From NCBI RefSeq assembly GCF_003336425.1, contig NZ_QEIO01000018.1, forward strand, positions 1 through 62,219: 62,219 nucleotides of DNA, in the 5' to 3' direction. Shown here in pieces: positions 45,808-59,112 of this stretch. Numbering within the stretch: the stretch's first letter is position 1; every line of letters starts with the position of its first letter. Under the pieces are notes generated by a model, which saw nothing but the letters and a program-made list of their open reading frames with translations, was not told where the DNA came from and did not search any database. This stretch comes from Marinitenerispora sediminis (GTDB lineage Bacteria > Actinomycetota > Actinomycetes > Streptosporangiales > Streptosporangiaceae). The translations under genes and the position numbers were made by a program.

Positions 45808-45883
45808 TGGTAGCGGAGGCCGGACTTGAACCGACGACACAGCGATTATGAGCCGCTTGCTCTACCGACTGAGCTACTCCGCC
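45808..45883 (-). tRNA. tRNA-Met (anticodon CAT), elongator type
   Basis: 76 nt including encoded CCA. Acceptor GGCGGAG/CTCCGCT, anticodon stem AGCGG/TCGCT around CTCATAA, T-loop TTCAAGT. It lacks the C1-A72 mismatch and the G-C-rich anticodon stem of initiators. A lysidine-modified Ile(CAT) cannot be excluded by eye. Confidence 0.92.
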
Positions 45884-45992
45884 TTAGAGCCGGGTTTCCG
45901 GACCTCTTCTGAGACTACCGGAACCCGATCAGACCGGCGAACATGATTTCCACCGGTCACCCACAGATGTGGACCGGACCTCATCAAGTGGT

Positions 45993-46067
45993 GGAGCCCC
46001 TTTACGGAATCGAACCGTAGACCTTCTCCTTACCATGGAGACGCTCTGCCGACTGAGCTAAAGGGGC
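45993..46067 (-). tRNA. tRNA-Thr (anticodon GGT)
   Basis: 75 nt with encoded CCA. Acceptor GCCCCTT/AAGGGGC, anticodon stem TCTCC/GGAGA around ATGGTAA, T-arm TACGG-TTCGATT-CCGTA. Located just before tRNA-Met on the same strand. Confidence 0.96.
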
Positions 46068-46234: not shown

Positions 46235-48322
46235 TCAGTCGACCCAGACGTTGGACATCGCGTCGCGGTGGATCATCCGGATGGTGGCCGGCAGGCCCAG
46301 CCGGTGCAGGGAGTCGGGGAGCCGGGTGTCGTGGGTGAAGACCACGAGCTGACGGTGCCGGCCGACCTCCGCCAGCACCGCCGCCAGGCCCTCGACGGTC
46401 TCGGTGTCCATGGCCTGCACCGGGTCGTCGAGCACCAGGAACCCGAACGGGTTGCCCGGGACCATGGTGCGCGGCAGGCAGATGGACAGCGCGAGCGCCT
46501 GGAACTCCCCCTGGCTGAGCAGCCCCGGCGCGTGCCCGGCGCTGCCGGTGCCGTCCACGCTGACGTCCACGGCGACCCTGCGCTGGGCGCCCCGGCCGAC
46601 CAGGCGCAGCGCCTCCAGATCGATGTGGCGCTCCTGGCGGAGCCGCTGCCACACGCGTTCGGCGTGCGACGCGAGCGGGCGCAGCCGTTCGGCGCGCAGC
46701 TCCCGGGCGCACGCGGTGAACCAGTGCAGCGCCTGCTCCGCCGGGCGCAGCGTCTCGCGCGCCCGCAGCGCCGCGCGGGCGTCGTCGACCCACGCGGCGA
46801 GCTGCTCGGCGAGCTCCGCCCAGCCGTCGGTGGGATCGGCCAGCCGCTCCGTGGCCGCCTTGCGCGCGGCCACCGCGCTGGACCGCAGCCGCCGCCCGGT
46901 GCTCTCGATGTGCTCGGCCAGCTCCCCGAGGTCGGTGAGCTCGGCGCCGGCGGCCCACTGCGCCCAGACCTGTCCGAGGTCGCTGTCGGCCGGCAGCCAC
47001 GAGGGCGGCGGGGCCATCAGGAACCTGGCCTGGTCGCGGGCCTGCTCGGCGCGCTCGTAGGCGGCCGCCGCACCGGCCGCCGCCGGCTCCAGCCGGGCGA
47101 TCTCCGCCCGGGCGCGCGCCACCCAGTCGGCGTCGAGGGCGTCCGCCGCGCCGCAGGTCGGGCAGTCGGCGTCGCCGGGATGGCGCTGGTGGTGCTCCAT
47201 GGCCTGGCGGAGCAGCTGGACCACCCCGCGGGCCCGGTCCCCCTTGGTGCCCGCGGCCATCGCCAGCTCCATCGCGGCGCCGCGCAGCTCGCTGACGACG
47301 TCGGCCATCAGCGCGCGTTCGGGGACCGCGAGGCGGCGCAGCCGGCGCAGCACCACCTGCCGGGCGGGGTCGCTGGGACCGTCGTCGGCGGCGACGGCGG
47401 CCACCCGGTCGAGGTCGATCGAGGGCGCGGTCAGCAGCTCCAGGGCGCGCGCGGCGCGCGGATCGGTGCTGCCGCGCAGCTGCTCCACCAGGTAGCCGAG
47501 GTCGCGCGCCGGGCGGCTCTGCTGCTTGTCCAGCCGGTCGCACGCCTTGGCGAGCCGGCGTTCGGTCTCCGCCAGCTCGGTGAGGCCGAGCAGCGTGGTC
47601 AGCGTGTCGTAGAGTTCGGCGGCCCGGCCGGTGACGGTCCGGCCGAGTTCGTCGTAGGAGAGGAACGGCCGGAAACGCAGCAGCTCGTCCCCCCAGCCCA
47701 GCTCGCCCAGCGGGCCCGTCTCCCCGGTGGGGAAGACCACCTCGCCGTGCGCCGAGCGGACGCTGGCGCCGGCCCAGGTCCGGGTGACGCGGGTCCACTG
47801 GGAGTCGCCGGCCATCTGGAGCTCGACGGTGATCTCGGTGCGGTCGTCGAAGTGCAGGTTGCGCCACCCGTCCCGCCATGCGGTGGGCATCCCGTCCCAG
47901 CGCAGGTTGCGGCCGGTGAGCGCCGCCTCGATGGCCTCGGCGAAGCTGGACTTGCCAGAGCCGTTGCGGCCGACGATCACGGTCAGCCCCGGGCCCGGCG
48001 GGAACTCCAGCACCGAGGCCCGGCCGATGCCGCGGAAGCCCTGGACCTCGACCCGGCCCAGGTAGCTGCGGCGCGAGCGGCGCACGGGCGAGCCCGGCTC
48101 GGCCGGCATGGGGAGGTCGGGCGCCTCGCCGCTGGCGCACGCGGCCAGGGCGTCGTCGCCGTGCAGGGCCGCGACGACCCACCGCCGGGCGGCGGGGTCC
48201 AGCGGCGCGGCCGACAGCCGCGCCGTGAGGGACTGCCCCGCCTCGGGCGCGTCCTCGTCGTTCCGTCGTCGTGGAGCCTCATTGGCGGACGTTGTCAGGG
48301 CTGTCGTCACTGTCGTCACCAC
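46235..48322 (-). CDS. Rad50/SbcC-like ATPase with zinc-hook motif
   Basis: 695 aa from GTG 48322 (GGAG 6-7 nt upstream); the open frame continues to 48841 but that part is Arg/Pro-rich and non-conserved. Walker A GRNGSGKS (118-125), ABC signature LLSQGEFQALALS (~605) and Walker B/D-loop FLVLDDPVQAMD (~630). A CPTC at 387-390 near the centre suggests a Rad50-type zinc hook joining short coiled coils. It resembles DNA-end or chromosome-maintenance ATPases but is not canonical SbcC (too short, no sbcD nearby). It lies directly downstream of the JetC-like gene, in the place where JetD would be expected. Confidence 0.8.
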   Translation of the reverse strand: MVTTVTTALTTSANEAPRRRNDEDAPEAGQSLTARLSAAPLDPAARRWVVAALHGDDALAACASGEAPDLPMPAEPGSPVRRSRRSYLGRVEVQGFRGIGRASVLEFPPGPGLTVIVGRNGSGKSSFAEAIEAALTGRNLRWDGMPTAWRDGWRNLHFDDRTEITVELQMAGDSQWTRVTRTWAGASVRSAHGEVVFPTGETGPLGELGWGDELLRFRPFLSYDELGRTVTGRAAELYDTLTTLLGLTELAETERRLAKACDRLDKQQSRPARDLGYLVEQLRGSTDPRAARALELLTAPSIDLDRVAAVAADDGPSDPARQVVLRRLRRLAVPERALMADVVSELRGAAMELAMAAGTKGDRARGVVQLLRQAMEHHQRHPGDADCPTCGAADALDADWVARARAEIARLEPAAAGAAAAYERAEQARDQARFLMAPPPSWLPADSDLGQVWAQWAAGAELTDLGELAEHIESTGRRLRSSAVAARKAATERLADPTDGWAELAEQLAAWVDDARAALRARETLRPAEQALHWFTACARELRAERLRPLASHAERVWQRLRQERHIDLEALRLVGRGAQRRVAVDVSVDGTGSAGHAPGLLSQGEFQALALSICLPRTMVPGNPFGFLVLDDPVQAMDTETVEGLAAVLAEVGRHRQLVVFTHDTRLPDSLHRLGLPATIRMIHRDAMSNVWVD

Positions 48323-48859: not shown

Positions 48860-51800
48860 CTACACCCCCACCATGCGGCGCCGGTTGCCGTCCCAGCTGA
48901 AGTGCAGGGTGGCGATGCCGGGGGTGGCGGGGTCCCGCAGGCACTCGTAGATGTGCAGGCTCGGCACGGTGGGGAAGCAGCCCCAGACGCGTTCCGAGGT
49001 GAGGACGAAGTCCAGGTCCAGCTCGACGAGGAGGCCGAGCAGCCGGCCGTGCGTGGGCTCGTCGACCTTGGCGAAGGCGTCGTCGAGCAGGATCAGCCGG
49101 GGGGCGTGCGGCGCGCCGGAGGCCAGGGAGTCGAACTGGGCGGCGGCGGTGGCGAACAGCACCAGGTAGGCGATCACCCGCTGCTCGCCCTGGCTGAGCG
49201 CGGTGCGGTGGCTGAGCCGGCGCTCCCGCTCCGGATGCGCGGCGTCGGTGACGTAGACGGTGAAGGCGAACCAGGACCGGTAGTCCAGCGCCATGCGCAG
49301 CTGCGCGCCGTTCGCGGCGGTGGGGTCCAGCCGCCGGATCGCCTCGATGCAGCGGCGCAGGGCGTCGCGCAGCCGGGTGGTCTCCACCCGCGTGCGCTGC
49401 TCCGCGGGGCGCTCCAGCAGCGGGACCACGGCGCTGACGTCCTCGTCGGCGTCCGGGGCCAGCCGCCAGTCCAGGCGCACGCCCAGCCCCTGCGAGGTGG
49501 TGACGTCGCGCAGCACGGCGTTCATCCGGGCGATGAGCGAGCGCGCCTCCTCGATCTGCCGGGACAGGTGCCCGGCCAGCTCGCCCAGCAGGTGCCGCTC
49601 GAACGCCTCCTCCTCCCGCAGCCGGACGGTCTCCTCCGCCTCCGCGATGGCCTGCTCCAGGCGTTGGGCGTAGCCGGTCACGTCGTGGGCGCCGTCGTCG
49701 TCGTGGACCGTGAGCCGCTTCACGCCGGCCGGCTCGGTGAGCTCGGTGCGCGCCCCCACGACGTCGGTGGAGGCGAGCGCCCGGTGCAGCTCCTCCCGCC
49801 GGCGGAGGATGCCGTTGTCGTCGACGTCGGTGGCCGGGTCGGGGTCGAGGCGGGTCGCGACCGCGTCCACGAACGCGGCCAGGGCCGCCACCCGTTCGGC
49901 GGGCTCCGCCGTCCGCGCGGCGTCGTAGCCGGTGAGGGCGCCATCGGGGGCGGCCGGCTCGTCGAGGCCGGCCGCGGTGAGCAGCGCCGGGTCGGGCTCG
50001 CCGTGCGCGTCCTGGAGCATGGAGCGCAGCGCGTCACCGGCCGCGAGGGCCCGGCGCGCCTGCTCGGCGCGTTCGCGGCGGGCGGTCTCCAGCCGGCTCT
50101 CGGCGGCCACCCGGTCGTCCCGGGCCCGCTGGGCGGTGCGCTCCAGCTCGGGGAGCCGGTCGGCGGCGCCGTCCATGCGGGCCCGCACCTCGGCGACGGC
50201 GGCCTCGATCTGGGCGGGGTCGGCGGTGCGCGCGCGGTCGGTGAGTTCGGTCTGGCGGCGCACGGTGATCATGTCGCCGATCGCGGTCGCGCGCACGTCC
50301 TCGGCGACCACGCGGTCGGCCCGCGCCCGCTGCCACTCCTCGACGTGCGCCCGGTAGTCCTCCAGGCCGTGCGCCAGCGCCTCGAGTTCGCGGTGGGCGG
50401 CCCAGACCCGTACCAGCAGCCGGCCGAGCGCCGCCCGGGTCTGGGCGAGCTCGTCGCGGTCGGTCGGCAGCGCGTGCTCACGGGCCAGCGCCGCGACGTC
50501 GCCGCGGAGCTCCAGCGCGGTGCGCCGGGCGGAGTCGGCGGCCTCCTGCGCGGCGGCGAGCTCGCGGGTGGCCCCGGCGAGCCAGGTCCGCGCGTCGTCC
50601 AGCGCCGCCCAGGCCGCGATCAGTCCGCCGCCGCTCGGCAGGGCGCGGGCGGTCGCGATGAGCTCGTCGTGCTGGCGTTCGACGTCGCCGCGGCGCTCCT
50701 GGGCCTCGGCGAGCAGCGCCTCGGCGATCGCGATCCGCCGGTCGAGCTCGGCGAGGTGGCGGGCGCGGCTCTGCGTGCGCGCCTCCTCGCCGATGTACTC
50801 GGGGACGGCCTTGCGGTGGGCGCCCGCCGCCACGCCGAGCCGCCAGCGGCCGTCCACCGACACGGCGCTGGACGCGGGCGCGGCGCGTTCGAGGTGGAAG
50901 AGCGGACCGAGTTCGTCGGCCGGCTCGGCGCCGGCGGGGTCCAGCCGGACGGAGCCCAGCAGTGCGCGGACGTCGGCGGCCGCGACCCCCGAGCCGGGCA
51001 CCTCGACCGGGATGAGGACGTCGGCCAGGCTGCGGCCGGATACCGGGCCGGCCGGGCTGAGGAGCAGATCGCGGGTGCCGGGGTCGACGACCGCACCGCC
51101 GGGGGCGATCCAGCCGGAGAGCAGCCCGGACGCCTCCAGCGCGGCCTCCAGGCCGGCGCGCTCGGCGGGGACGAGCTCGTCGGCGAAGTCCACGGCGAGG
51201 TAGAGCGGCACACCCGCGGCGGTGTCGCGGGCGGCCGTGGCCCACGCGGCGCGCGGAGCGGGGAGGTGCTCGCCCACCGCGGCGCGCCGCTCGGAGAGGT
51301 CGTCGAGTTCGGTGGCGAGTTCGCGCTCCTCCTCCACCGCCGTGTCGCGCCGGGCGCGCAGGTCGGCGAGCGGAGGATCGACGATCTCGTTCGCGCGCCG
51401 CGCCACCTCGGCGGGGACGTCGGCGTCGAGGACGCGCAGCGCGTCGTCCAGCGGCATCTCGACGCACTCCTCCAGGGCGGTGAGTGCCGCCTCCAGGTCG
51501 CTGTCGGGAGCCGCGGCCCGGACCGCGCCGATCCAGCCCCGGACCTCCGCGGCGTAGTCGGCGCTCGCGGCGCGCACGGCGGCGATGCCGGCTGCCTCGC
51601 GCTCCCTGGCGCGCTCCACGGCGGCGTCGGCCCACTCCGCCTCGTCGGCGAGTGCCTCGGCCCGGCGCTCGGCGGCGGCGAGGCCGGTGGCGCGCTCGAA
51701 CAGGTCCGTCGCGGCGGCCTCGCGCTCGGCCCCCCGCTCGGCGCCCCGCGTCAGCCGGTCGTGCAGTTCGGCGAGCCGTCCGCGCAGCTCGGCGAGGTCC

Positions 51801-53203
51801 ACGCCGGGGACGGGGTCGCGCTCGACGGCCTGCTCCAGGCCCTCCAGGTTCACGTGGGTGCTGCTCTCGCGAGGAGCGAGCACGATGCTGGCCGCCCGGG
51901 GCACCTCGCCCAGCTCCGCCGGGTCCACGCCCGCCGCGCGGGCGGCGTCCGCGAGCGGGGCGTGCGCCTGGCGCAGGCCGGTGAGCGCCCGGTCGATGGC
52001 GGCGACGTCGGCGGTGAGCCGCCGCTCCGCCTGCCGCTCGGTGGTGAGCGCGTGGCTCGCGGCCGCCCACGCGGCCTCGGCGGCGCGGATGTAGGCCGTG
52101 ACGGCGGCGAAGCGTGCCTGCCGTTCGGCCTCGCTCGGGGCCGGGGCGCCGGGCGTACCGGCGGACAGGGTCGCGACGTCGGCGGCCGCGGTGTCGCGCG
52201 AGCGCCGCGTCTGGTCGCGCTCCTCCTGCACGGCCCCCTCGGCCGCCGTGAGCCGGTCCAGCTCCTCGGCGAGGCGGTCGACCTCGGCGTCGCGCTCGGC
52301 GTGGTCGTCGAGCTGCCGGCGCACGACCTCCGCCTGGCCGCGCAGCCGGCCGTGCAGGTAGCGGCGGTAGTCGGCGAGGAACTCCTCGACGCGCTCCCTG
52401 GCGGAGCGCAGCCCGGTGAGGCGGGCGCGGGCGTCGTCGAGGTCGGAGATGTTGCGCGCCACCGCGTCGAGCACGGTCTCGTCCATCGGCGGCAGCGCCT
52501 CGGACAGCACCTCCACCAGTTCGCCGGCCTCCAGCCGCTCGCCGACCGTGGGGCGGCGCAGCCGGTAGAGCAGGTGGACCAGGTTGCGGTAGCGCATCGG
52601 GTCATCGAGCCCGAACAGCTCCCGCATGACCCGCGCACGGTAGCCGGTGGCGGTGTCGTAGCAGTTCTCCGGACCGACCTCGGCACGCAGCCGGTCGATC
52701 GCGAGCGGGCGTTCGCCGACGACGAGGGCGAGGTCCTCTCCGACCCGGCGGTCGGTGACGAAGAACACGGCACGGGCGTCGCCGGCGCCGGGGGAGGCGG
52801 TGATCGCCGCGCCCAGGGTGCGCCACCGGGGCCGGTCGGCGCCGTCGCGCCCGGCGAACTCGATCCACAGGTAGCCGAGGGTGCTGGTCGGCGCGGCCTC
52901 GGCGGCGCCGGCGTCCGGCGCGGCGGCCCGGCTGTCCACCAGGAGCCAGCGCAGGCTGGTCCGGCTGGTGCCGGTGGTGTCGAGCCGGCGGGCGTCGCCG
53001 TCGAGCAGAAACGGCAGCAGCATCTCCAGCGCCTTGGACTTGCCGGCGCCGTTGCGGCCGCGCAGCAGCAGCCGGCCCTCAGCGAACCGGAAGACGTGGT
53101 CGTCGTACTGCCAGACGTTGTGGATACCGGCCCGGTTCAGCCGGTAGCGGCCGGGAGGAGCCGTCTCCTCCTCCGCCGTGGCGGGGTGTCCGGCGTCACT
53201 CAT
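48860..53203 (-). CDS. TIGR02680-family SMC-like ATPase (Wadjet II JetC-like)
   Basis: 1447 aa, MukB/SbcC-like. Walker A GRNGAGKS at residues 49-56 in the N-terminal head; >1100 residues of Ala/Arg/Glu-rich sequence consistent with coiled-coil arms and a hinge; ABC signature LSQGEQRVIAYL (~1335) and Walker B LILLDDAFAKVD (~1368) in the C-terminal head. TIGR02680 proteins are the loop-extruding motor of type II Wadjet, which recognises and cleaves small circular plasmids when JetD is present. ATG with GGAGGG upstream. Separated from jetB by 568 nt, unlike the usual tight operon. Confidence 0.85.
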   Translation of the reverse strand: MSDAGHPATAEEETAPPGRYRLNRAGIHNVWQYDDHVFRFAEGRLLLRGRNGAGKSKALEMLLPFLLDGDARRLDTTGTSRTSLRWLLVDSRAAAPDAGAAEAAPTSTLGYLWIEFAGRDGADRPRWRTLGAAITASPGAGDARAVFFVTDRRVGEDLALVVGERPLAIDRLRAEVGPENCYDTATGYRARVMRELFGLDDPMRYRNLVHLLYRLRRPTVGERLEAGELVEVLSEALPPMDETVLDAVARNISDLDDARARLTGLRSARERVEEFLADYRRYLHGRLRGQAEVVRRQLDDHAERDAEVDRLAEELDRLTAAEGAVQEERDQTRRSRDTAAADVATLSAGTPGAPAPSEAERQARFAAVTAYIRAAEAAWAAASHALTTERQAERRLTADVAAIDRALTGLRQAHAPLADAARAAGVDPAELGEVPRAASIVLAPRESSTHVNLEGLEQAVERDPVPGVDLAELRGRLAELHDRLTRGAERGAEREAAATDLFERATGLAAAERRAEALADEAEWADAAVERAREREAAGIAAVRAASADYAAEVRGWIGAVRAAAPDSDLEAALTALEECVEMPLDDALRVLDADVPAEVARRANEIVDPPLADLRARRDTAVEEERELATELDDLSERRAAVGEHLPAPRAAWATAARDTAAGVPLYLAVDFADELVPAERAGLEAALEASGLLSGWIAPGGAVVDPGTRDLLLSPAGPVSGRSLADVLIPVEVPGSGVAAADVRALLGSVRLDPAGAEPADELGPLFHLERAAPASSAVSVDGRWRLGVAAGAHRKAVPEYIGEEARTQSRARHLAELDRRIAIAEALLAEAQERRGDVERQHDELIATARALPSGGGLIAAWAALDDARTWLAGATRELAAAQEAADSARRTALELRGDVAALAREHALPTDRDELAQTRAALGRLLVRVWAAHRELEALAHGLEDYRAHVEEWQRARADRVVAEDVRATAIGDMITVRRQTELTDRARTADPAQIEAAVAEVRARMDGAADRLPELERTAQRARDDRVAAESRLETARRERAEQARRALAAGDALRSMLQDAHGEPDPALLTAAGLDEPAAPDGALTGYDAARTAEPAERVAALAAFVDAVATRLDPDPATDVDDNGILRRREELHRALASTDVVGARTELTEPAGVKRLTVHDDDGAHDVTGYAQRLEQAIAEAEETVRLREEEAFERHLLGELAGHLSRQIEEARSLIARMNAVLRDVTTSQGLGVRLDWRLAPDADEDVSAVVPLLERPAEQRTRVETTRLRDALRRCIEAIRRLDPTAANGAQLRMALDYRSWFAFTVYVTDAAHPERERRLSHRTALSQGEQRVIAYLVLFATAAAQFDSLASGAPHAPRLILLDDAFAKVDEPTHGRLLGLLVELDLDFVLTSERVWGCFPTVPSLHIYECLRDPATPGIATLHFSWDGNRRRMVGV

Positions 53204-53771
53204 CGACCACCCTCCGCTCCGTTCCGCGCCGCGTCGCGCGGTCTGGGTCCACTGCTGACGGTCGTGTCATTCTCCCGGATCCGAGAGGCGGCCGCGTCCC
53301 GGCCGCCGGCGACCGGAGGGCCGCCCGCCGGACCCGCCGGCCGCGACCGGATCCGCCCGGACGCCCGTCCGTGGTGGCCGCCAGCGCCGTGCGGGGGCCC
53401 GCACCGGACTCCGCGCGGGACGTGCACCGGCGCACACCCGGCACCGGCCCGCAGCAGGGCGAGCTGCGGAGGGGCGGCCGCGCCGGTTCCCGTCGGGGCC
53501 GGGTCCCGGCAAGCACGGCAGGACGACGTCGTCCGGGCCGGTCGGCGGCGGTCGGCGCCGGAGGCGCGGTGCACCCGGCCCGAGCACGACGGCGTCCCGA
53601 GCGGCGGGTGCGACGGGCGCTGAGCGGCGCGGCCACGGGCCGCACCGCGGACACGCGTCCTCGGTCCGGACCGCCTGCCCGGCCGGCACCCGTGTCCGGC
53701 GCCCGGGCGTCCTCCCCCGCGGCCCCGCGCGGCCGGGGGCGGAGTCCCGGTCGGGCGGGCCACCGGAGGAG
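53204..53771. other. 568-nt gene-free stretch inside the Wadjet-like locus
   Basis: Open frames here are antisense or Arg/Pro-rich without similarity that I recognise. The minus strand near 53210-53220 carries the JetC ribosome site. It may be a scar of a lost gene or a promoter region for jetC. Confidence 0.45.
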
Positions 53772-55013
53772 TCACCGGTCCTCCTCCGCGGCCGGCTCCG
53801 AGCGGCCCGCGTCCGGCGGGACGGTGTCCGTGCGGCTCGGCCCGTACCGTCCCGCTGCGGCGAGCAGCCGCCATCCAGAGCCGGAGGCCGCTCCCGTCTC
53901 GCGCGCCATGAGCCGGGCGTCGGCGAGCACGCCGAGGACGCGGCCGGTGAAGTCGGCCGCGTCGGGGACGTAGCTGACGGCCGCGCGCGACCAGGGGCGG
54001 CCGGACTCCGCGTCGGAGCCCGCCAGCCGGTCCAGTTCGGCGCGCAGCAGGTCGTCCGGCACCGGGACCTCTGGAGCAGGCCCGGCGGCCGGCCGGAGCT
54101 GGTGGACCAGCCGGCCGACGAGCAGCAGCGCCGCCTGGCCGACGGGGTCGGAACTGGGGAAGGCGGCGGGGCGGTCGGTGCCGCGGGCGTCCGACCCGCC
54201 GTCGTCGGGCATGATCAGCGCGACTCCCTCGGCGCGGATCTCCGCGTCGCATCCGAGGAGGGCGGCGAGTTCGGCCACAGCCCGCCACTGGTGGTGGGCG
54301 AGCCGGTCGCGGTGCTCGGCCGGCAGGTCGTCCCGGTACAGGACCGCGGTCTCCGCCAGGCGCCGGCGGATGGTGAGTTCGACGCCGCGGGTGCCGGCGG
54401 GGGCGGCGTCCGCCGCGGCGAGGAAGCCGCCGGAGTCGGCGGCGGCGCCCGGCGGGTGCGCGAGCACCTGGCGGACCGCCTCGTGGTGGACGTCGAGGAC
54501 GGCCTCGGAGCCCTCGGCGCCGTATCCGGACAGGGTGCCCTCGTGCTCCTCGACGGCCCCCCAGTCGGCGAGGACGCGCAGCGCGGCGGCGAAGGCGCGC
54601 CGCTCGCCCGCGCGGTCGGCCGGGTCCAGGCCGAGTCCGGCCTCCCCCGCGGCGACGCGGACGTCGGCCGCGAGCCGGGTGACCGCGATCCGCGGCGGGG
54701 CCTCCAGGAGGGCCGCGACCGCGAGCGCCAGGTAGCTGTAGGTGCGCGGGGTGAAGTACCCGCCGCTGCCGCGGACCAGCGGCCGGCGCACCGCGGCGAC
54801 CAGTCCGGTCTTGACGAGGCGGGCGTGCTCGGCGGCCACGGTGAGGCGGTAGTCGAGGACGCGGCGGAAGCGCTGCACCAGCCACTCGGCGTGCGCGCGG
54901 ATCAGCGCGAAGTCCTCCGGGTGCGTGTGCGCGGTGACGAGCGGGTCGGCGAGCAGCCGCCGGGCGGCGGTCTGCCGCTCCACGGTGAGGGCCACGTCCT
55001 CCCTGGAGGCCAT
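53772..55013 (-). CDS. DUF2398 / TIGR02678 protein (Wadjet II JetB-like)
   Basis: 413 aa. MASREDVALTVERQTAARRLLADPLV, then RRVLDYRLTVAAEHARLVKTG and the segment FTPRTYSYLALAVAALLEAP, are characteristic of DUF2398, the kleisin-associated winged-helix (MukE-like) partner. A second half with LAHHQWRAVAELAALLGCDAEI follows. Apparently full length. ATG 55013 has GGGAGG upstream at 10-nt spacing. It starts 193 nt after the truncated JetA-like frame ends. Confidence 0.82.
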   Translation of the reverse strand: MASREDVALTVERQTAARRLLADPLVTAHTHPEDFALIRAHAEWLVQRFRRVLDYRLTVAAEHARLVKTGLVAAVRRPLVRGSGGYFTPRTYSYLALAVAALLEAPPRIAVTRLAADVRVAAGEAGLGLDPADRAGERRAFAAALRVLADWGAVEEHEGTLSGYGAEGSEAVLDVHHEAVRQVLAHPPGAAADSGGFLAAADAAPAGTRGVELTIRRRLAETAVLYRDDLPAEHRDRLAHHQWRAVAELAALLGCDAEIRAEGVALIMPDDGGSDARGTDRPAAFPSSDPVGQAALLLVGRLVHQLRPAAGPAPEVPVPDDLLRAELDRLAGSDAESGRPWSRAAVSYVPDAADFTGRVLGVLADARLMARETGAASGSGWRLLAAAGRYGPSRTDTVPPDAGRSEPAAEEDR

Positions 55014-55206
55014 CAGTGGGGTCACCTCCCTGCGTGCCGGTCGGGGGCGGACGCGCGGTCGCCGGGTGGATCCGTTCGGGCCTCGGCGCCGCTGGCCCGG
55101 CGGTCCCGCCGCCCTTGGCGGTCGCCCGGTACGTGCGACCGGAGTCCCATGGTGCCGTGCCCGGCCCGGGCCGTCAGGGGTCGATGGGCGCAGGGTGATC
55201 CGTCTC

Positions 55207-55935
55207 TCATCCGTGCCGCGCCAACCGGTGGGCGATGCGGTGCCGGGCCGGGCGGCCGGCGCCGGGCTCGGGCTCCGGCGGGCCGCCGGGCTCCTCGGCC
55301 GCGTAGCCGGTCGCCCGTAGCCGGAGGGACTCCAGGACGAGGTCGCCCCCGGCCTCGCGCAGGGTGAGGACGGCACCGGGGTCGTGCCGGACGTGCAGCC
55401 GCACGTCGAGTTCCAGGTCTCCGGCCGAGACGGGGGCGGAGCCGGCGTCACCGGAGCCCAGGGCCGCCGTGAGCAGCTCCATGAGCACGTCCATGGCGGC
55501 CGAGGACAGCCGCAGCGGTTCACCGTCCGCGGCGGGCTCGGCCAGCACGCGGCGGACCTCCTGCGCGGCGGACCGCCGCCAGTGGGCGGCGGCCTCGGCC
55601 GCGTCGCGCAGCCGCGCCTGCTGCTCCGAGTGGTCGTCGACGAGCGCGGCCGGCCCGCGGGGCGCGGAGCGGGACACCGGGGTTGCCGCCGGGGCGTCCC
55701 ACCAGCTGGTGGTCGCCGCGACCGACTCGTCATGGGTACCGCCCAGGTGCCGGGCCGGGTAGAGGGCGAACGCGGCGGTGCACAGGGCGTGGGCGGTCTC
55801 GGTGTCGGCGGCCTCGAACCACGCCGCGAGTCGCAGGAGCTCGGCCCGGCCGCGTCGCGAGCTCCGGCCGGCCGGTCCAGCCGTCCCCGGGTCCGCGGAG
55901 CCGATCGTCGTCGCCTGGTTCGGTGAGTCACCCAC
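55207..55935 (-). CDS. N-terminally truncated DUF2397 / TIGR02677 protein (JetA-like)
   Basis: 242 aa. From about residue 30 it matches the C-terminal half of DUF2397 (RAELLRLAAWFEAADTETAHALCTA, then ALYPARHLGG, TTSWWDAP and LSSAAMDVLMELL). Full-length JetA proteins are about twice this size; the N-terminal winged-helix/kleisin part is missing. An in-frame TGA lies two codons upstream of GTG 55935, so no longer start exists. There is no ribosome site, but a TAGTCT box 8 nt upstream could give a leaderless mRNA. Likely a remnant, though possibly a minimal kleisin. Called CDS rather than pseudogene because the frame is intact. Confidence 0.75.
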   Translation of the reverse strand: MGDSPNQATTIGSADPGTAGPAGRSSRRGRAELLRLAAWFEAADTETAHALCTAAFALYPARHLGGTHDESVAATTSWWDAPAATPVSRSAPRGPAALVDDHSEQQARLRDAAEAAAHWRRSAAQEVRRVLAEPAADGEPLRLSSAAMDVLMELLTAALGSGDAGSAPVSAGDLELDVRLHVRHDPGAVLTLREAGGDLVLESLRLRATGYAAEEPGGPPEPEPGAGRPARHRIAHRLARHG

Positions 55936-55943
55936 AACTCAGC

Positions 55944-55949
55944 AGACTA
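55944..55949 (-). promoter_or_regulatory. Candidate leaderless -10 box before the JetA-like frame
   Basis: TAGTCT on the minus strand ends 8 nt before the GTG start, the spacing expected for a transcript beginning at the start codon. No matching -35. Confidence 0.35.
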
Positions 55950-56083
55950 GAGACCCCGCGCCACCACCGTGCCCCGAACCGGGCCGCCGCGCGGTCCTCC
56001 CGCCGTCGGACCACCCGCCTGACCTCCGGCTTCCGCGGCCGCCTTTTTCGTCACCGCTCCGGCGGCCGCGCCCGGCCGCCGCG

Positions 56084-56935: not shown

Positions 56936-57020
56936 GGGTCACCGGCCACCGGAACGCGGTCGCGATGTGGCGCCGTCGATGACGGCTCCCCCGCGCCCCG
57001 GCCGGCTGGCGACCGTTGCC

Positions 57021-57314
57021 CTAACCGCCTGCGCCGTTCTTCCTCGGGATGGCGTCCCAGGCGGCGTCAGAACTGAGGTTTCCGCTGATGGGCCCGTTGA
57101 CGCAGTCGCCCGTGGTCTGCGGCGAGAGCGCGACGACGGTCGCGCCGAGCACCGCCACGTTGGCGTTGCACACCTGGACCGGCAGGACCTGCAGGTTCTG
57201 GTTGAACTTCTGGCGGGCCTTCTCGACGACGTCGGCCTGAGCCGGGGCGGCCATGAGGACCGCCCCGAGCACCGCGCCGACGATCAGCCCCGCGACCGCT
57301 GGTTTCCGCGGCAT
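57021..57314 (-). CDS. Small secreted chaplin-like protein, copy 4
   Basis: 97 aa. Signal peptide MPRKPAVAGLIVGAVLGAVLMAAPAQA, then NQNLQVLPVQVC and ALSPQTTGDCVNG: the same two-cysteine core as its three neighbours. It differs by a ~15-residue C-terminal extension (SSDAAWDAIPRKNGAGG) and the lack of a clear ribosome site. Probably co-transcribed with the upstream copies. Confidence 0.75.
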   Translation of the reverse strand: MPRKPAVAGLIVGAVLGAVLMAAPAQADVVEKARQKFNQNLQVLPVQVCNANVAVLGATVVALSPQTTGDCVNGPISGNLSSDAAWDAIPRKNGAGG

Positions 57315-57328
57315 GGACGTCGGTCCGG

Positions 57329-57577
57329 TTACAGGTCGACGTTGGTGCCCTGGGCACCGTTCACGCAGTCGCCGGTGGTCTGCGGCGACAGGACCGGCAC
57401 GACGATGGCGAGCACGCCGACGTTGGCGTTGCACACCTGGATCGGAACGCCCTGCAGGTTCTGGTTGTACTGCTGCTCGGAGGCGTTGACGTCCACGGCC
57501 TGCGCGGGCGCGGCGGCGAGGACGGAACCGAGGGCGATACCGGCGACGGCGCCGGCGATTCCCAGCTTGCGCAGCAT
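57329..57577 (-). CDS. Small secreted chaplin-like protein, copy 3
   Basis: 82 aa; MLRKLGIAGAVAGIALGSVLAAAPAQA signal peptide, then VDVNASEQQYNQNLQGVPIQVC and LSPQTTGDCVNG. Spacing between the two cysteines is 21 residues, versus 17 in Streptomyces chaplins. AGAAGGGA precedes ATG 57577. Almost identical to copy 1. Confidence 0.8.
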   Translation of the reverse strand: MLRKLGIAGAVAGIALGSVLAAAPAQAVDVNASEQQYNQNLQGVPIQVCNANVGVLAIVVPVLSPQTTGDCVNGAQGTNVDL

Positions 57578-57650
57578 GGTGAATCCCTTCTGGAAGTACA
57601 CGGAGTACGTGTGGAGTTCTGGATCGGCGATGGTCGCGGGCTGACCCGGA

Positions 57651-57890
57651 CTAGCCGACGTTGGTGGAGACCGGTCCGTTGATGCAGTCGCCGGTGGTCT
57701 GCGGGGACAGGATCGGAATGACGACGCCGGCCACCGCGATGTTGGCGTTGCAGATCTGGATCGGAACGACCTGCAGGTTCTGGTTGAACTGCTGGTCCGA
57801 GACGTTCTTGGCCTGGGCGGGAGCCGCCATCAGGACCGAGCCCAGGGCGGCCGCGGCCACCAGGCCGACGGCGCTCAGCTTGCGCAGCAT
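57651..57890 (-). CDS. Small secreted chaplin-like protein, copy 2
   Basis: 79 aa; signal peptide ending APAQA, then KNVSDQQFNQNLQVVPIQIC and LSPQTTGDCING. AAGGAG lies 7 nt before ATG. Hydrophobic, two-cysteine mature peptide of about 52 residues, the size of short chaplins. Confidence 0.8.
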   Translation of the reverse strand: MLRKLSAVGLVAAAALGSVLMAAPAQAKNVSDQQFNQNLQVVPIQICNANIAVAGVVIPILSPQTTGDCINGPVSTNVG

Positions 57891-57902
57891 GCGCCTCGCT
57901 CC

Positions 57903-58160
57903 TTAGCGGAAGTCGACGTTGGTGCCCTGCGGGCCGTTGACGCAGTCGCCGGTGGTCTGCGGCGAGAGCACCGGAACCACGATGGCGAGCACGCCGACGT
58001 TGGCGTTGCACACCTGGACCGGGACGACCTGCAGGTTCTGGTTGTACTGCTGCTCGGAGGCGTTGACGTCCCAGCCGTGCGCCTGGGCGGGCGCGGCGGT
58101 CAGCAGCGCGCCCATCGCGGCGCCAGCGACGAGACCGAATGCGGTCAGCTTCTTGAGCAT
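57903..58160 (-). CDS. Small secreted chaplin-like protein, copy 1
   Basis: 85 aa; MLKKLTAFGLVAGAAMGALLTAAPAQA signal peptide, then NASEQQYNQNLQVVPVQVC and LSPQTTGDCVNG. First gene of the array, with a GGGGAA site before ATG 58160 (an in-frame ATG at 58169 is an alternative). The core QNLQVVPVQVCNANV recalls the chaplin GN-V-QVPVHVPVNVCGN. A role in surface hydrophobicity or aerial growth is an inference. Confidence 0.8.
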   Translation of the reverse strand: MLKKLTAFGLVAGAAMGALLTAAPAQAHGWDVNASEQQYNQNLQVVPVQVCNANVGVLAIVVPVLSPQTTGDCVNGPQGTNVDFR

Positions 58161-58169
58161 CTTTTTCCC

Positions 58170-59112
58170 CATCAAATCAGGCGAGGATTGAATAAGACGC
58201 CGAGCGGCGCCCGACGTTGCGGTGGACTGCCGCAATCATTGACCGCTCTCCCGCTTTTTGTCAACGCCGAAATCAGAGAAATCGAAATGTCCGCTTCACA
58301 CACCTCGCCCCCATTTGAAGAGAGAAGCAAGAAATGGCAGTAAATAAGTTTGCGGAGCTTTCCAGTTCGTTTACCGTGTCGCACCTGACAATGGCGAGTA
58401 CGGTAAAGTCCGCGACGGGAAAAGCGGCGGTGAACCGCTGCTGGGAGCGGCCCCGTCCCACCGCATAGCACCACGGACCGCCGGCTATCCCCGCAGAAGC
58501 GGCGGCATTACCGCTCCGCACGTCCACCGCTCGTCCAGTGCCTGTCCACAGACCTGTGGACATCCCGTGCATACCGGCGACGAACCGATTACGGGCATGC
58601 TCTAATTCACCCTCGCCATGCTGCCCTCTTCGCGGCCGTGCGCAGGCATGAGCTGGGGTTTCGGCACTCTCGGCGCGGGCTGCGGCAGGACCGGAAAGCG
58701 GAACGGTCAACGTGGGGCCGGGACGTGCCCACAGGAGGGCGCGGGCACGGCGGGAAGAGCGGGAACCGGACCGACGCGACGTGGGGCGGCGCGGCCGGGG
58801 AACGGATCGCCCTGCCGCCGGAAGGCGCCCGCGGACGCCGTACGGCACCGGCACCGGGTCCGGCGGCGGCAAGGGGCGGGAAACGAGGCCCGCGACCTGT
58901 GATGATGCCACAGCCGGCGCGGTCCGCGCACGCCCTCGCGCACAGTCAGCCGGGCATCCCCGGCCTTACCGAGGAGGAGTTCCCTGGGACTACCAGTCCG
59001 CGACCGGCAGCCGCACACCTCCGTAGGCGGCGCTGCGGCGGTGTTCGAGATGCGGTGTGCAGGCCCAGTCGACCCAGTCCGCTCGGTCCGCCAGCTGCTT
59101 ATCCTTGTGGCC
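58170..59112. other. Gene-poor region upstream of the chaplin-like array
   Basis: About 940 nt. 58250-58370 is clearly AT-richer than the surroundings. It holds the array promoter, a possible 44-codon + strand ORF (58334-58468, ATG with purine-rich AGAGAAGCAAGAA before it, no homologue recognised), and a DnaA-box-like inverted pair (58542-58563). The rest shows no gene that I can support. Confidence 0.45.
58235..58264 (-). promoter_or_regulatory. Promoter of the chaplin-like array
   Basis: Consensus -35 TTGACA (58259-58264) and -10 AATGAT (58235-58240), 18-nt spacing, minus strand. Start near 58228 gives a ~70-nt leader before copy 1. Confidence 0.6.

Follow-up and report, generated by a model that had tools for sequence, protein, structure and literature searches.

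The DNA analyzed here (the window, 62,219 nt) is one whole contig, C80, of the 6.01-Mb draft genome of Marinitenerispora sediminis (441 contigs, 99.3% complete). Three genes of Wadjet type II families lie on its reverse strand, followed by an ATPase gene and two tRNA genes:

55939..55953, reverse strand: conserved leaderless-promoter-like element TCTCTAGTCTGCTGA, 3 nt ahead of the JetA start codon (putative promoter)
55207..55935, reverse strand: short JetA, C-terminal part of a kleisin (DUF2397), 242 aa, from the DUF2397 profile and a structure model
53772..55013, reverse strand: JetB, KITE-like, DUF2398, 413 aa, from PADLOC and Pfam profiles
48860..53203, reverse strand: JetC, SMC-like, TIGR02680, 1447 aa, from TIGR02680 and PADLOC JetC2
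46235..48256, reverse strand: SMC/Rad50-like ATPase with a CxxC pair; uncertain start codon in a frame that stays open up to 48841
45992..46067, reverse strand: tRNA-Thr, a constant downstream neighbor in all 45 loci compared
45808..45883, reverse strand: tRNA-Met, likewise constant in all 45 loci compared

In profile searches, JetC scored 838 bits against TIGR02680 (cut-off, 462.85) and 1167 bits against PADLOC JetC2, and its best JetC1 match was 41 bits. JetB scored 255 bits against DUF2398 (cut-off, 26.9) and 92.9 bits against TIGR02678, below the cut-off of 124.65. JetA matched only profile positions 295–481 of the 483 of DUF2397 (99 bits; cut-off, 28.5) and reached 61.2 bits against TIGR02677, below the cut-off of 165.85. 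These TIGR02680, JetC2, DUF2398, and DUF2397 scores bear out the first-pass annotation, which had read JetA, JetB, and JetC on one strand with JetA at half length. That annotation had proposed TIGR02677–02680 as a check, of which TIGR02680 was above its cut-off, TIGR02678 and TIGR02677 were below theirs, and TIGR02679 gave no match; the TIGR02680 and DUF2398 assignments, whose failure would have undone its reading, both held. The ATPase gene directly downstream of JetC, absent from its gene list, is part of a conserved block.

The extent of this block was examined in two sets of loci. For the first, the 80 genomes that make up the relatives set were scanned for JetC2, and the sequence flanking the matches was extracted. 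Twelve of 20 regions (L035, L037, L039–L046, L048, and L050) contained the block in the same surroundings, although the contig ends before JetA in L048 and before nearly all of the ATPase in L045. The remaining eight were different JetABC loci. The neighbor queries were partly longest ORFs, maybe in the wrong frame, and their matches show conserved DNA order only. The other set, L075–L119, comprised 45 loci that formed the top part of the best 80 matches in GTDB genome contigs (ATPase alignment); their titles named Nocardiopsis, Thermobifida, Streptomonospora, Marinactinospora, Murinocardiopsis, Actinorugispora, Allosalinactinospora, one actinomycete MAG, and one Glycomyces fuscus. Among these best 80 matches listed, tRNA-Thr and tRNA-Met stood right behind the ATPase in 45 of 45 loci, the short JetA, JetB, JetC, the ATPase, and the tRNAs occurred together in 37 of 45, and the full block was present in 37 of the 38 loci with more than 8 kb of upstream sequence. 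The sole exception, N. endophytica (L086), carried the ATPase alone at the site. L097 and L098 each have JetB divided between two frames, and in L115 several genes are broken. These four copies indicate either that some species can do without the block or that some assemblies contain errors.

Of the 341 genomes in the GTDB family, 70 from 16 genera, M. sediminis included, matched a short-JetA profile with at least 259.8 bits (among the matches listed). Next below, among the matches listed, came G099 (181.9 bits) and G265 (166.4 bits), and the weaker family matches were frames of at least 506 aa, except G165 (334 aa, 55.6 bits). In a class sample of 394 genomes, matches outside the family scored at most 131.9 bits and lay in frames of at least 505 aa, except for G643 (367 aa) and G623 (253 aa, with no JetB found in the 7.5 kb of sequence retrieved).

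The nuclease JetD was not found near the locus, as had been noted at first, and the proposed search for an unlinked copy was also negative: neither TIGR02679 nor DUF2399 had a match in the M. sediminis genome. A JetD elsewhere in the genome together with an intact JetA, which would have spoken against an incomplete system, is thus not found in this organism. The TIGR02679 search was positive in 34 of 80 relatives-set genomes, indicating that it works in this group. Our own JetD profile detected no remnants around the block, and the 45 loci L075–L119 (among the best 80 ATPase matches listed) all lacked a JetD match. A JetABC complex lacking JetD should leave plasmids uncut, as judged from the gene content. 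One alternative is that JetD is borrowed in trans from a canonical Wadjet system elsewhere in the genome. Of 14 genomes carrying the locus, 8 had a DUF2399 gene at another place, so that JetD might act in this way in them, and TIGR02679 was above its cut-off in 7 of 15 further genomes of a second set. We consider this explanation improbable, since no such gene was found in the other 6 of the 14 genomes, that of M. sediminis included, nor any TIGR02679 match in another 7 of the 15. The JetD-free genomes with the locus include assemblies of 1–4 contigs.

The second missing part is the N-terminal half of JetA. The whole-genome DUF2397 search of M. sediminis gave one C-terminal match only, and thus no separate N-terminal half was found in this genome; the match was likewise confined to the C-terminal part in 14 of 14 genomes tested. 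This direct test covered the 14 genomes and the fetched loci. The C-terminal domain started at residues 18–124 of frames of 234–346 aa in 11 block loci and the window, whereas in the other JetA proteins (19 of 20 further relatives' loci) it started at residue 304 or later in frames of at least 513 aa; these full-length and short calls were made with our own profiles, trained on the same loci and Pfam-checked on 14 genomes and 8 frames. JetD was adjacent in 17 of those 19 full-length-JetA loci, the exceptions being L064 and L065 (own profile). In L076 and L101, the JetA frame was open further upstream, with domain starts at 124 and 299, respectively, and Pfam detected no N-terminal half in the longest frames of L101, L076, and L117.

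The structure model of the short JetA (mean pLDDT, 74.9) was built from an alignment of 36 of 38 sequences, with L107 and L117 left out, and consisted of two helices at residues 27–58 and a winged-helix-like domain. Residues 97–213 were superimposed on residues 389–494 of the Neobacillus vireti Wadjet type II JetA (9qe0_E) with Z 7.1 and an rmsd of 3.1 over 104 aligned residues, a moderate fold match (Z below 8); the next unrelated chain had Z 3.5. Foldseek returned nothing at E of 0.001 or less, and its top matches were 9qe0_E (0.0066) and 9qe1_E (0.014). A weak profile match (E 0.2) put the first helices near residues 319–381 of 9qe0_E. The fold and this weak profile alignment suggest that roughly the first 300 JetA residues are missing. 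Beyond the core, the C-terminal tail of the short JetA in L107, L117, and other Nocardiopsis was rich in Pro, Glu, and Ala and ranged in length between about 30 and 340 aa.

The start of the short gene is itself conserved. A 15-nt element near TCTTTAGTCTGCTGA, with at most three mismatches, was found immediately 5′ of the JetA start codon in 37 of 38 loci, L108 being the only one with a larger deviation. In 31 of the 38 JetA loci, a GTG start lay directly behind the codon that follows an in-frame stop. The element contains TAGTCT, which we take to be an actinobacterial −10 box, and its spacing from the start codon presumably fits a leaderless transcript; it is therefore described here as leaderless-promoter-like, with a predicted promoter role. 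In G265, a stretch resembling the element preceded JetA and failed the three-mismatch search.

Selection on the four genes was estimated from 14 pairs chosen by hand. The dN/dS values were 0.15–0.35 for JetC, 0.11–0.26 for the ATPase, and 0.19–0.47 for JetB, with 0.62 in the pair containing the broken L098 copy. For JetA, they were 0.28–0.58 including the variable tail and 0.14–0.35 for the core alone. All four block genes are under purifying selection. The first-pass annotation had offered decay as one of two readings, in which the locus is a Wadjet remnant with JetD and half of JetA deleted and the rest drifting. The two missing parts and the broken or missing copies in a few species would fit such a remnant, but synteny kept long-term over many genera, dN/dS values well below 1 in all four genes, which contradict drift, and the conserved JetA start element make it very improbable.

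The position of the block among Wadjet systems was examined with JetC trees that excluded fragments of up to 1150 aa; the first tree contained some genomes twice. In it, the JetC proteins of 52 short-JetA sequences formed one clade against 25 others (support, 1.0). In a reduced tree with five more loci, G099 was sister to G265 plus the Nocardiopsaceae (both nodes, 1.0), and all of these were nested with the JetD-bearing loci L073, L157, and L159 (0.999). Whether G265 falls inside or outside the Nocardiopsaceae set had a support of 0.41. G099 has a full-length JetA (DUF2397 positions 2–480), JetB, and JetC, with the ATPase on the opposite strand; no JetD was found at its site, and elsewhere in its genome there was one partial TIGR02679 match with a stop. 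G265 has the short JetA, JetB, JetC, and the ATPase at its site, with no JetD there and no TIGR02679 match anywhere in its genome. Both loci lie between tRNA-Tyr and tRNA-Thr/tRNA-Met. Because G099 and the short-JetA loci are nested within JetD-bearing Wadjet type II, JetD was probably lost first and the kleisin N-terminus second. This order leans on a single full-length-JetA genome, G099, in which JetD may possibly have been lost separately. L117 (Glycomyces fuscus) and L107 (Streptomonospora nanhaiensis) grouped among Nocardiopsis in the JetC tree, and either the names are off or the genes have moved.

The motifs LSQGE (signature) and LDD (Walker B) were present in all 52 short-JetA JetC proteins. 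They were considered as a mark of altered activity and dropped, as SQGE and LDD are shared by the JetD-bearing loci L067, L070, and L073. A search for close JetC proteins on plasmids gave 21 records, all below 60% identity and none with a single stretch covering 80% of the query.

The model of the ATPase (mean pLDDT, 88.0; alignment of 39 of 81 sequences at hand) had Rad50 and SMC heads as its best solved-structure matches. The protein scored 84 bits against mad3 and 54 bits against LmuB through shared ATPase motifs. Like Rad50/SbcC and Lamassu LmuB, it has ABC-type heads on a coiled coil with a CxxC pair, and the likeness rests on the heads. ATPases about 40% identical were found in 35 loci (L120–L154), which belong to other actinomycetes and, in a few cases, to other bacteria; none of them stood beside JetC (both among the best 80 matches listed). 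A small conserved gene with no family match follows several of these distant ATPases.

These features raise the alternative that the block still serves defense, with the ATPase or another factor replacing JetD as effector. The ATPase is a fixed neighbor of the block and resembles both defense ATPase heads (mad3 and LmuB) and Rad50. However, a Pfam-type profile search detected no nuclease domain in it, it stands without JetABC in L086 and in the 35 distant loci (among the best 80 matches listed), and it lies on the other strand in G099. The fixed chromosomal site and the vertical pattern are also unlike those of mobile defense loci. We regard a remaining defense role as rather unlikely, though less so than a JetD supplied in trans.

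The block shares with Wadjet type II (JetABCD; N. vireti, PDB 9qe0/9qe1) the JetB and JetC families, the gene order, and the JetA C-terminal domain. It differs from that system in having no JetD, a JetA without about the first 300 residues, and a constant place in the chromosome, next to a Rad50-like ATPase. Like MksBEF and MukBEF, it combines an SMC protein, a KITE protein, and a kleisin without a nuclease subunit; unlike them, it has a JetC of the JetC2 (type II) kind, with a JetC1 match of only 41 bits, and the kleisin N-terminal dimerization part is missing, JetA beginning at DUF2397 position 295. The N-terminus of a kleisin binds the SMC neck. According to PMC10586767, the kleisin N-terminus connects two motors in type I Wadjet and MukBEF, and MksBEF and MukBEF are proposed there to derive from nuclease-armed defense systems. 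N. vireti type II JetABC is treated as a dimer in PMC12647877.

We therefore favor, with a probability of roughly 0.6, the reading that the block is a Wadjet type II derivative that lost JetD and then the kleisin N-terminus and has been kept at one chromosomal site as a non-cutting SMC complex. The gene content, the negative searches for JetD and the JetA N-terminal half in the M. sediminis genome, the conservation, the purifying selection, and the nested tree position are observed, and from them we infer complex formation, a single-motor state, the order of losses, and a chromosomal role. Selection would retain the block between tRNA-Tyr and tRNA-Thr/tRNA-Met in Nocardiopsaceae. JetC would dimerize as an ATP-driven SMC protein whose heads carry JetB and the short JetA, the latter comprising a hairpin and a C-terminal winged helix. 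Known Wadjet complexes have two motors connected by the kleisin N-terminus, so a complex with half a kleisin should not link two motors and should act as a single motor or clamp. Its target would most likely be chromosomal DNA, in compaction, tethering, or the processing of damage, and the Rad50-like ATPase next to it may be a partner.

Conservation at one site and purifying selection point to a cellular role and suggest a defense system turned to another job. The other reading of the first-pass annotation, a JetD-less condensin that may have been reused for another task, agrees with the conservation, with the fixed chromosomal site, and with the JetC tree. All 14 of the 14 locus-bearing genomes examined contained ScpA and have thus retained the Smc-ScpAB kleisin. 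More tentatively, at somewhat below even odds, the complex may work with half a kleisin: with the motor-linking and neck-contacting part gone, the kleisin would no longer close the ring and would serve as a head cap holding JetB. Such a complex would have arisen from plasmid-cutting defense through JetD loss and then truncation, and may pair with the Rad50-like ATPase.

Under the favored reading, steps of a change like the one proposed for MksBEF and MukBEF would be visible at one chromosomal site in related genomes, here in another Wadjet type, and the half kleisin would offer a natural test of which parts of an SMC ring DNA binding and loop extrusion require. Defense finders that count JetC matches could wrongly label such strains as plasmid-restricting. 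A literature search by titles and abstract starts, with most subscription journals and bioRxiv outside its scope, gave no paper on a JetD-less block among the matches listed and, within the same scope, no paper naming 9QE0.

Other JetABC loci without an adjacent JetD were also found (L036, L038, L047, L049, L052, L053, L064, and L065; own profile), all with full-length JetA and with no JetD among the ten neighbor proteins scanned. L047 and L053 both lie beside superoxide dismutase and X-Pro peptidase genes, and perhaps represent a second JetD-less lineage. Just upstream of the block in the window, an array of genes for small secreted proteins with a repeated motif, which we presume to be rodlin-like, occupies positions 57000–58300 of the reverse strand, and DNA resembling this array lies upstream of the block in several relatives.
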